64,000 bases of DNA, taken from positions 5,049,400 to 5,113,399 of the forward strand of contig NC_089325.1 of the NCBI RefSeq assembly GCF_036669915.1. The letters are read 5' to 3'. The position numbers and the translations under genes were made by a program. The first letter of the stretch is position 1. Each line of letters starts with the position of its first letter. The notes beneath the pieces are model-generated. The model did not search any database. It was not told where the DNA came from and was given only the letters and a program-made list of their open reading frames with translations. The DNA comes from Pocillopora verrucosa. Taxonomy: Eukaryota > Cnidaria > Anthozoa > Scleractinia > Pocilloporidae. Below, in pieces: positions 40,290 to 43,082 of this stretch.

Positions 40290-43082
40290 TTACTCGCCTG
40301 TAGAGAATGTACATTAATCACTTTATCCTTTTATTTTCAGCAAAAATTATCAATAGCTATAAAGATAAATAATGATCTTATGAAGATTACCCGCGGTTTC
40401 TTTTTCTGTGTCGCTTCTCCAGGGCCAAAGTCGATCATCTGTTTCGAGAAAAAACAAAAAAAATTTGAATAAGGGACGAAAGTAAAAAGCCATTTAACGA
40501 TAAATTTTTGCAATTGTCGTGGTGAAGCTTTAAAAAACAATATCCGCAGATACCTTTTTTGTCATCCCTTTGCCATGGCCAAAACCGCTCATCTTATCAT
40601 GTAATAGGAAACAAAGAGAACATTAAAATAACACAATTTGGTATTGAACTAAAATGAAAGATACATCACTATTGCTACTGAACTCATCAGGGTAGAATAC
40701 GCTTAGCAAAAGGCAGCTACTGCTATAGGAACTGGTACAGAGTCGGTATTCACACTTTGACAAGTTTTCCCTTAAAATGTTTAATTTGTAAGCACGTCTC
40801 TCACCTTTTCTTGGTCCTCCTGTGACAATGAAACAAAATGGAAAGATGTTAATTATACATGCAAATGCAAAAAGGAAATTGAAAAACAACATAAGACAGA
40901 ACTTTTCAAAAATATGAAACAATACTACTACTAACTCCCAAAACCGCTCATCTTATCATACAATGAGAAAAAGAAAAAAAAAACGTTGAAAAATCACAAA
41001 GCAGCTGCAAACTGAAACAAAGATACATTTCTATTGCGCTACTGAACACTCCTTTCTAAGCTAATTGTAGATGATACATTTACCCGTTGCATCTTTTTTA
41101 GTTGCGTCTCTTTGCCATGGCCAAACTCTCTCATCTATTTTGCAAGAAAACATAGTGAGACTTCATGAACAGCTAATAACATGTAACACGTAATCAGGCG
41201 CTCGTTTATGCTTATAATGTCAAAACGTAAATTACCTCAAGAAGACAGCCATTGCAGTAACTCTTGAACCGTAGTATCGTCCACTGAAAACTACATCTGG
41301 AACCTTTACTAGTACTGATACATACCTTTTTTCGCATCATTTGAACCTTGCCATGGCCAAATTCGCTTATCTGTTACTAGTATAGAAATGAAAGAAAGTG
41401 TTGATAATAAATTATAAAGTAAGTGAGAAAGTATGCCATCCTCATCATCAGGAATAGCAGCAGCTACAATACTTATAAATACAATCACAATAAAGAATAT
41501 ACTACATCTCTGAAACCACAACGACAAAAACAAGACTACCGGCGGCATCTTTTTCAGTGTCACAAATAAAAGAAAACTTGAAGGAAGGACAAAGCGAAAA
41601 GGCAATTTAACGATAGCTGCGCAGAATTTTGTAAATGAAGCTTTCAAAAACAATATTCTAAGACACCTTGTTCGTCTTTGACGTCCCTTTGCCATGGCCA
41701 TAAGCGTTCGTCTTGTCATGTAGTAGGAAACAAAGAGAACATTAAAATAACACAATTTGGTATTGAACTAAAATGAAAGATACATCACTATTGCTACTGA
41801 ACTCACCGTTGTAGACTAATTGAGAACAAACGCATATTCTTAGAAGTTTTGTATCAGCTTAATGATGTGTCAGGGTAGAATACGCTTAGCAAAAGGCAGC
41901 TACTGCTATAGGAACTGGTACAGAGTCGGTATTCACACTTTGACCAGTTTTCCCTTAAAATGTTTAATTTTCTCAGCGGAGGATTCGGAATTATTATAAT
42001 AAGAGTGAGTTTGAATGAGTTACTGTCGTCATTGCTCCAAGGCCATGATTTCTTGCCTTGACGATGTTTTACACGTTTCCTTAATGGACTTGTTATAAAA
42101 TAAGATAAATTCATCCGACACCACTCATACCCTGTTTCTTTTCATCCGCTGACGAGGTGGCAAAAAGAGTGCCCATGCTTGCTATAGTTGAACGATACTC
42201 AAACATGGGAACAAAAATATTTCCACCGTGATATTTTTTACTGCACCATAATTTGAAGATTCCAACTGATGTCAGAACTTATGTCTTAAATTATATATTT
42301 GAATCTGTGATAAAGTTGTTGGACTTAAATTATCAAATATTCTTGTCATAAAATGTGCATGAAATTTCTCAAGTTGAAAAACAAAGGCCTGTGAGTGTTG
42401 CAAAAAATAAGGTAACCTTTATGTTGGTAAAAACATACCTAAAAAGATACAAAAAAAAAGATGAAATAGCAATTTAAAAAGTTACCATTAATATCTTTGC
42501 TCTCGGCTTTGTCTTCAAATTTTGCTTCATCAGCTGTATGAGAAAAACACATTTTGACCCTGTACCTCAGCTTTACACCCTCACATCAGTATTCACAGGC
42601 TCCATACTGTTCCCTTCTTTTTCTTATGGTATTGATATGGAGAACTTGTTCAACTATCAAGGGCTTCTTAATTTGGTTTATTCTCGTGACCCTAATGTTC
42701 GATTCGATCATGTTACTGTAAGGAGAAATTAGATGCCGGTCACCCCTTGGCGTTAAAGGGTTAACCTTGAGTTTTAAAGGTGAAGTCTTTACGTTTAACA
42801 ACCAGTTGTTTCGGTCAGGTAATAAAGTAAAGGCAATTACGTCCGGTGTTCCTTATAATTTTTCTTTACTTATATGCAACGCGAGATACAATGAAAAGAA
42901 CAAAATCCGATATTTCTGTTTATAAAAACTGAACATTATTCCTTTTAAATCATAACGAAAGCCTTTTACATGAAATATCCGAACTCCACTGAATATATTA
43001 TCGGCTCATCACTGAACTCACCAAGGACCATTGAAAACACCAAAAGAACGCAAGACACCATCAAAAGCAGGTTCAGTCTCAT
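40290..43082 (-). CDS. Secreted precursor with repeated WPW micro-exons
   Basis: Coding exons in transcript order: 43022-43082 (signal peptide, MRLNLLLMVSCVLLVFS), 42486-42533 (acidic, ADEAKFEDKAESKDIN), 42024-42056 (GKKSWPWSNDD, weak acceptor), 41667-41711 (DERLWPWQRDVKDEQ), 41326-41370 (DKRIWPWQGSNDAKK), 41084-41134 (DERVWPWQRDATKKDAT), optional 40805-40819 (GPRK), 40554-40592 (DERFWPWQRDDKK), 40391-40438 (DDRLWPWRSDTEKETA) and 40290-40297 (GE, TAA). Every junction is phase 1. Total about 125 aa, or 130 with the optional exon. The signal peptide, acidic spacer, repeated Trp-Pro-Trp units and Lys-Lys or Lys-Arg pairs between units resemble a multi-copy secreted-peptide precursor cut at dibasic sites. 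The WPW core next to Arg/Gln resembles Trp/Pro-rich antimicrobial peptides, but that is only a motif likeness. I recognise no named family. Confidence 0.75.
40380..40785. repeat. Internal duplication unit of the WPW gene, 3' copy
   Basis: This segment matches about 41525-41970 in the same orientation. Shared blocks include AACACAATTTGGTATTGAAC (40630 and 41748) and a 95-bp block starting AGGGTAGAATACGCTTAGC (40689 and 41871). The 3' copy lacks about 70 bp present in the other. It carries exons 40554-40592 and 40391-40438. Confidence 0.8.
40785..40945 (-). repeat. Copy of a segment of the RGPRK gene inserted in the WPW gene
   Basis: About 155 bp nearly identical to 47614-47797, including the GPRK micro-exon, its splice sites and flanking intron. 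The copy at 47.6 kb has an extra 20 or so bases (around AAAGCAAAGTTTTAAAT). One breakpoint falls inside a WPW exon (TTTTGG) and the other near ATTTGTAAGC. Confidence 0.85.
40936..40951 (-). pseudogene. Chimeric WPW / RGPRK exon fragment
   Basis: It begins like the exon at 40554-40592 (ATGAGCGGTTTTGG, encoding DERFW), but after TTTTGG it switches to the donor end of the exon at 47790-47837 (GGGA then GTTAGT). If spliced it would leave in phase 2. With the next micro-exon, this would put a TGA at the start of the following WPW exon. It is therefore probably skipped or dead. Confidence 0.7.
41525..41970. repeat. Internal duplication unit of the WPW gene, 5' copy
   Basis: Partner of 40380-40785. 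It carries exon 41667-41711 and, at its 3' end, a degraded counterpart of the terminal WPW exon. Confidence 0.8.
41528..41565 (-). pseudogene. Remnant of a WPW exon that lost its core
   Basis: On the minus strand this reads GACACTGAAAAAGATGCCGC, encoding DTEKDAAG, before a GTAGTC donor. It matches the end of the exon at 40391-40438 (DTEKETAG before GTAATC). The upstream part with acceptor and Trp-Pro-Trp codons is missing, and flanking intron sequence still aligns. It looks like a dead cassette. Confidence 0.6.
42555..42770 (+). repeat. CCCTTTA-ended dispersed element, copy 2
   Basis: Relative of 19095-19335: CTCCATACTGTTCCCTTC, an ATTCTCGTGACCCTAATGTT block, and GAGAAATTAGATGCCGGTCA near the end, finishing in AAAGGGTTAA. 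Inserted in intron 1 of the WPW gene. Confidence 0.7.

Follow-up and report, generated by a model that had tools for sequence, protein, structure and literature searches.

A very likely, apparently undescribed precursor gene with Trp-Pro-Trp micro-exons in Pocillopora verrucosa

Tandem peptide exons in frogs and secreted proteins made from micro-exons in schistosomes are already known. In the passages of PMC3731216 used here, the Xenopus caerulein and magainin genes carry tandem peptide-encoding exons, and a frog gene uses the terminal exon of its neighbor, as documented by 17 expressed sequence tags. Schistosome micro-exon genes (MEGs), in the passages of PMC10526429 used here, start with a signal peptide, after which come numerous very short exons whose lengths in nucleotides (nt) are mostly divisible by three; they encode secreted variable proteins. 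Amidated cnidarian neuropeptide preprohormones are recognized, according to the relevant part of PMC7523074, by a signal peptide and by three or more GKR, GRR, or GR sites that are preceded by three or more peptides of high mutual similarity. Here, we describe a locus of the coral Pocillopora verrucosa, situated in a 64-kb stretch of contig NC_089325.1 (hereafter, the window), in which short exons each encode one unit with a Trp-Pro-Trp (WPW) core. We think it very likely that the WPW locus is a real precursor gene, apparently one not described before, with relatives only in Pocillopora among the collections searched. Our preferred interpretation, which we hold tentatively and as close to an even proposition, is that six phase-1 exons encode the WPW units of a secreted precursor that would be cut at Lys/Arg pairs into acidic signaling peptides.

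As read from exons in the window sequence, the WPW gene occupies positions 43110–40290 of the minus strand (Table 1), with an AATAAA motif at 39764. Each of its six WPW exons (u1–u6) encodes one unit, is 33–51 nt long and a multiple of three, and is in phase 1 at both ends; the internal exons, seven in all (48, 33, 45, 45, 51, 39, and 48 nt), are uniformly of phase 1-1. The spliced reading, MRLNLLLMVSCVLLVFSMVL-ADEAKFEDKAESKDIN-GKKSWPWSNDD-NERLWPWQRDVKDEQ-DKRIWPWQGSNDAKK-DERVWPWQRDATKKDAT-DERFWPWQRDDKK-DDRLWPWRSDTEKETA-GE, has 125 residues. An earlier, sequence-only reading had described six phase-1 WPW exons of 33–51 bp with the consensus (G/D)-x-(K/R)-(aliphatic/aromatic)-WPW. Its exons, phase, and lengths stand, but the consensus fails in two units: u2 starts with N, encoded by the junction codon A|AC, and u1 has Ser directly before WPW. 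The signal-peptide and acidic spacer exons that it had placed ahead of the units are likewise predicted by our reading, with splice sites at the 94th–98th percentile, although the acidic exon is absent from the closest protein match (P0001, introduced below). These percentiles come from an approximate matrix and are ranks among local GT and AG sites; on the same scale, the donors of u2–u6 lie between the 93rd and 99th percentiles (784 local GT) and their acceptors between the 71st and 97th (794 local AG). The splice sites of u1 are weak on both sides (acceptor at the 51st and donor at the 84th percentile). The N-terminus of the protein is hydrophobic and was judged a signal peptide by eye, and on this ground the precursor is predicted to be secreted.

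Because all internal exons are of phase 1-1, gain, loss, or skipping of units is frame-neutral, and peptide number could vary through splicing. Whichever of the seven internal exons are skipped, the frame is kept in all 128 possible combinations, bearing out the earlier proposal that exons could be skipped at no frame cost. With internal exons of 33–51 nt, or 15–51 nt if a 15-nt GPRK exon is included, all of them multiples of three, and a signal peptide judged by eye, the gene has the build of schistosome-type MEGs. As in the frog-skin layout, each of the six WPW copies has its own exon, the yield of peptides being a prediction.

The array exceeds what chance would produce. The sequence TGGCCNTGG occurs seven times in the window, six of them inside the array, as compared with a mean of 0.69 and a maximum of 3 in 100 shuffles. 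Similarly, the six exon-like phase-1 WPW segments lie on a single strand within 1.7 kb, whereas 200 Markov-simulated windows contained a mean of 0.05 and a maximum of 1. These counts rule out a chance-motif reading; since the WPW copies are duplicates of one another, the figures reject coincidence only. Across the 64-kb window, the unit segments match one another and one upstream-gene segment, with no further matches, and in this scope they do not form the high-copy repeat that the sequence-only reading had named as grounds for abandoning the gene.

Within the seven-codon core of u2–u6, the proportion of synonymous differences (pS) is 0.58 versus 0.15 for nonsynonymous differences (pN; placement simulation, P = 0.035). 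The core Arg is encoded by CGC, CGA, AGA, CGG, and CGA, four different codons, and Pro by CCA four times and by CCC once. With u1 added, pS is 0.66 and pN is 0.23, the simulated P-value covering the u2–u6 set only. This synonymous excess lends modest support to constraint at the protein level. In the youngest duplicate pair, u5 and u2, the upstream introns are nearly identical while the exons and downstream introns diverge, as if a conversion tract had ended close to the exon; because of this suspected border, we claim neither accelerated nor constrained exon evolution from the pair.

A protein search with the WPW query returned two proteins at E ≤ 1 among 10 candidates. The first, P0001, is an unnamed Pocillopora meandrina product (213 amino acids [aa]; 75 per cent identity, full query coverage, E = 2.1e-53) that contains all six WPW units and agrees with our reading at six of six unit junctions, including A|AC between u1 and u2. 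The second, P0002 (LOC113673270 of Pocillopora damicornis, 162 aa), contains u5, u6, and the end of the protein and shares two unit junctions. A shorter WPW query yielded two weak matches among seven candidates: P0005 (E = 0.026), which is the unspliced u6 frame of the window itself, and P0006 (E = 0.28), an unspliced signal-exon frame found on four contigs, the longest of 13,976 bp, and hence genomic. P0001 presumably belongs to the gene set of PMC10236652. In the part of that source used here, its authors state that the species first named P. meandrina is now P. cf. effusa, and that Gmove combined assembled transcripts with aligned cnidarian proteins into the models; the proteins came from 18 species according to the methods and from 25 proteomes according to the results. 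The first residues of P0001 align with window stretches that contain stops; a protein alignment is therefore an unlikely source of P0001, and we infer that a transcript is the likelier one.

The earlier statement that no named family fits has stood up to the searches. No Pfam family matched the WPW reading over its cut-off; the only match, to Quaking_NLS, reaches 18.2 bits (13.6 for P0001), stays below the cut-off of 22.9, and is taken as chance. There was no match among PDB chains up to E = 1 and no Rfam match at gathering score within the window. No title among those listed in the searches of open-licence PMC literature describes a coral WPW precursor, and the main text of PMC7523074 contains no word beginning with WPW.

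The other exons of P0002 lead to another micro-exon gene, directly upstream on the minus strand (50667–46269), whose product is likewise a predicted secreted precursor. A series of IPQ(K/S)EL, spacer, and GPRK exons occurs in it twice, followed by an acidic C-terminus, and Pfam yields nothing for its protein up to E = 1. Two protein matches follow it: P0003 (145 aa, seven members, longest contig 977 bp) covers approximately 4.4 kb of the window, and P0004 (128 aa, one member, longest contig 1201 bp) runs from the second coding exon over approximately 3.2 kb. Contigs so much shorter than the regions that they cover must be spliced; from their tag, 'lgn', we infer that they are public read assemblies. 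The upstream gene has GPRK followed by GRR, its single site of this type, which would agree with the consensus X1PRX2amide in the consulted part of PMC7523074. A neighbor of the same build, with splicing backed by short contigs, supports the WPW gene.

Table 1. Predicted exons and exon remnants of the WPW gene and the upstream micro-exon gene (window positions; percentiles refer to local GT or AG sites).
Feature	Position	Strand	Basis
Candidate 5'-untranslated exon, 3' end	43426..43434	-	Donor TCG|GTAAGT, 99th percentile of local GT; donor alone placed
Signal-peptide exon MRLNLLLMVSCVLLVFSMVL, ATG 43082, phase-1 donor	43022..43110	-	Acceptor 95th, donor 98th percentile; signal peptide by eye
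Acidic spacer exon ADEAKFEDKAESKDIN, 48 nt, phase 1-1	42486..42533	-	Acceptor 96th, donor 94th percentile; candidate, absent from P0001
u1, GKKSWPWSNDD, 33 nt	42024..42056	-	Weak sites; donor and junction codon match P0001, acceptor differs
u2, NERLWPWQRDVKDEQ, 45 nt	41667..41711	-	Identical junctions in P0001
Dead unit, u6-copy remnant DTEKDAAG, acceptor and WPW missing	41538..41561	-	Block alignment with u5-u6
u3, DKRIWPWQGSNDAKK, 45 nt	41326..41370	-	Identical junctions in P0001
u4, DERVWPWQRDATKKDAT, 51 nt	41084..41134	-	Identical junctions in P0001
Dead hybrid unit, DERFW start and 3' end of upstream exon e7	40936..40951	-	Frame incompatible with next exons
GPRK micro-exon, 15 nt, phase 1-1, common to upstream gene	40805..40819	-	Acceptor 100th, donor 99th percentile; skipped in P0001
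u5, DERFWPWQRDDKK, 39 nt	40554..40592	-	Found in P0001 and P0002
u6, DDRLWPWRSDTEKETA, 48 nt	40391..40438	-	Found in P0001 and P0002
Last exon, coding part (G)E and TAA stop	40290..40297	-	'GE' terminus in P0001 and P0002
Upstream gene, 5' exon	near 52235-52161	-	
Upstream gene, signal-peptide exon MRALIFSSCIILIIANSLA	50595..50667	-	Splice-site ranking; P0003
Upstream gene, six phase-1 micro-exons, 54/54/24/48/54/15 nt	49495-49442, 49163-49110, 48999-48976, 48693-48646, 47843-47790, 47652-47638	-	P0003; P0004 from first of the six onward
Upstream gene, last two coding exons (GDMWSEIDQEAR... MMP*)	46769-46704 (66 nt), 46333-46269	-	Exon ends placed by hand

The 105 residues that follow the signal peptide of the WPW precursor have a pI of 4.93, include 28 Asp or Glu, and contain five Lys/Arg pairs (GKK|S, DKR|I, AKK|D, TKK|D, and DKK|D). 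Cutting at all five would release the acidic propeptide, a 24-residue piece that retains two WPW cores, and four one-core pieces (IWPWQGSNDA, DERVWPWQRDAT, DATDERFWPWQRDD, and DDRLWPWRSDTEKETAGE); with cuts at dibasic sites only, all six pieces have a net charge between -1 and -4. None of the KR, RR, or R sites follows a Gly, and amidation is thus not expected. Because the pieces are acidic and without amidation sites, the short WPW peptides may act as non-amidated secreted signals, akin to the Hydra LW-peptide. We favor such secreted signaling over defense or a matrix role with low confidence.

Several observations weigh against a separate gene with this mode of processing. The two protein searches aimed at the WPW gene, a check suggested in the sequence-only reading, retrieved P0001 with its six matching junctions but no transcript-like WPW contig, versus two for the upstream gene. 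At its 5' side, P0001 reads through the acceptor and the donor of the signal exon, has no acidic exon, and begins u1 further upstream, and P0002 fuses only u5-u6-GE, in frame (GPRK|DERF), onto exons of the upstream gene. Untranslated stretches match P0001 as well as the translated ones do; conservation between species therefore shows no selection, and we dropped it as proof of coding. The codon signal, as stated above, is modest. Additionally, only two of the five dibasic sites (AKK|D and DKK|D) fall at exon borders, two stand directly before a WPW core, one lies within u4, and none separates u1 from u2. The analogy to neuropeptide precursors, drawn from the dibasic spacers, holds for the five KK/KR sites; it does not extend to the amidated type, as the 105 residues contain one GKK and no GKR, GRR, or GR site, and the six WPW units, although similar, are not placed before such sites in the manner that PMC7523074 describes.

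Other roles for the same precursor have to be weighed against signaling. WPW peptides released at the surface could act on microbes as part of a mucus or antimicrobial defense, as the Trp/Pro-rich core had suggested in the sequence-only reading. Relatives confined to Pocillopora among the search matches, duplicated and dead units of the sort expected of arsenals such as frog skin, and small Cys-rich protein frames in the same window all agree with this idea. Typical Trp-rich antimicrobial peptides, however, are cationic, whereas the WPW precursor is acidic and six of its six dibasic pieces are net negative. With pieces that are acidic and non-amidated, the antimicrobial analogy is weak; defense deserves serious weight, even though we think it somewhat unlikely. 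It seems improbable that the protein stays uncut, as a disordered, acidic scaffold of the skeletal matrix or mucus in which the WPW units serve as repeated sticky contacts. The abundance of Asp and Glu and the scarcity of dibasic sites at exon borders are consistent with a scaffold, and so is a predicted structure of P0001 with a mean pLDDT of 48 and no residue at or above 70, which is weak evidence because the model was built from one sequence. Against a scaffold, cleavage at the five sites would yield four pieces with exactly one WPW each.

The remaining alternatives concern the gene itself. The WPW exons could be alternative 3' exons of the upstream gene rather than a gene of their own, as P0002 links GPRK to u5-u6-GE in frame, both genes have phase-1 internal exons and a copy of the 15-nt exon, and a frog gene that lacks a terminal exon is spliced into that of its neighbor (in the consulted part of PMC3731216). 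We regard this as quite improbable: P0003 and P0004 terminate in the upstream gene's own two final exons, a signal-peptide exon of its own is predicted at the WPW locus and is present in P0001, and gene models that fuse tandem duplicates are, according to the passages used of PMC10236652, a recognized fault of coral annotation. The GPRK|DERF junction of P0002 could reflect either genuine splicing across the two genes or an artificial fusion in the model. An exon array in decay, not expressed and strung together by gene builders, would account for the two dead units, the weak sites of u1, and the searches that returned no WPW transcript contig. We consider it highly unlikely, as the six units retain frame, phase, and splice sites, the core shows a synonymous excess, and the model from another species agrees at every unit junction.

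A 15-nt exon of the upstream gene has been copied into the WPW gene, and WPW units have decayed within the array; the sequence-only reading mentioned neither this exon, nor the two dead units, nor the neighboring micro-exon gene. A segment holding the 15-nt GPRK exon (40784–40940) is 86 per cent identical to 47617–47794 in the upstream gene and breaks into a former WPW unit (DERFW|...), and the region running from u2 to 41538 can be aligned with the u5-u6 block. Six intact and two dead units suggest, at the level of sequence, birth and death of exons; together with the exon common to the neighbor, the array displays exon gain and loss side by side. Since the internal exons of both genes are all of phase 1 and the 15-nt exon is common to both, the two genes might even form one combinatorial locus, in which transcripts cross and signal peptides, GPRK, and WPW units are mixed into many secreted precursors, an independently arisen cnidarian counterpart of the schistosome MEGs. 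We deem this unlikely.

The window contains further features. A dispersed repeat (42571–42764, 19144–19355, and 54309–54516; copies 73–79 per cent identical) has one copy inside the WPW gene, where it separates the signal-peptide exon from the acidic one. Six small Cys-rich frames lie at 8137–8592, 12186–12563, 13069–13371, and 39063–39386 on the plus strand and at 31246–31581 and 58090–58434 on the minus strand; that at 39063–39386 is thus on the strand opposite to the WPW gene, in a tail-to-tail arrangement. The frames beginning at 8137, 12186, 13069, and 58090 have TILa/VWC matches, of which only that of 8137–8592 exceeds the cut-off (28 versus 27 bits); those beginning at 31246 and 39063 have no such match and were grouped with the others by eye. 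A frame at 18400–18789 on the plus strand has a likely signal peptide, MKSWIIFLLLASLAIYSNG, followed by six cysteines, with no Pfam match up to E = 1. Fragmented reverse-transcriptase-like frames at 60328–61112 on the minus strand are perhaps a retrotransposon remnant; the one frame searched, 60864–61112, has a weak RVT_1 match (14 versus 29.6 bits).

As far as our searches reach, two things are new: the WPW sequence family, found in Pocillopora only among the collections searched, and an exon that two adjacent precursors have in common. Provided that the WPW precursor is expressed and cut, it would represent a Pocillopora peptide family that standard pipelines easily miss, because its exons are tiny, it has no amidation site, and the public models of the locus disagree. 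The evolution of a frame-neutral micro-exon precursor is, moreover, directly testable across Pocillopora species.

A layout of one exon per peptide may be unusual among neuropeptides, as claimed earlier, but it is not so in general, given the tandem peptide exons of pipid frogs and the very short exons of schistosome MEGs. Skin-peptide genes of pipid frogs, including cpf-St4 and cpf-St5 of Silurana, resemble the WPW locus in gene layout, with a gene cluster, tandem peptide exons, and a sharing of terminal exons that is only a possibility in the coral; in the consulted part of PMC3731216, they encode antimicrobial and hormone-like peptides from duplicated exons that have barely diverged; the WPW units, by contrast, are acidic and vary among themselves. 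The schistosome MEGs share the build outlined at the outset, yet they belong to another phylum, most of their exons are 15 bp long, and the passages used of PMC10526429 describe no tandem copies of a single motif, while the WPW exons repeat one unit. In the three protein searches, covering the WPW and upstream genes, no match was named as a schistosome protein, MEG proteins not having been directly compared. The scleractinian GPRGamide, Antho-RFamide, GLWamide, RPamide, TRFamide, FHIRamide, and RWamide families, as presented in the part of PMC7523074 used, have a signal peptide and mostly repeated units with basic sites; they are amidated, with Gly before the basic site, and the WPW gene is without such a site. 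Among the known cases compared, the Hydra LW-peptide A precursor appears closest in kind. In the consulted part of PMC12440616, it is taxon-restricted and gives several non-amidated peptides, of which EPEPPETGLW is acidic, Trp-bearing, and active on polyps. Its LW is C-terminal and the WPW of the coral is internal, and the two are likened by peptide character, not by gene structure or ancestry.

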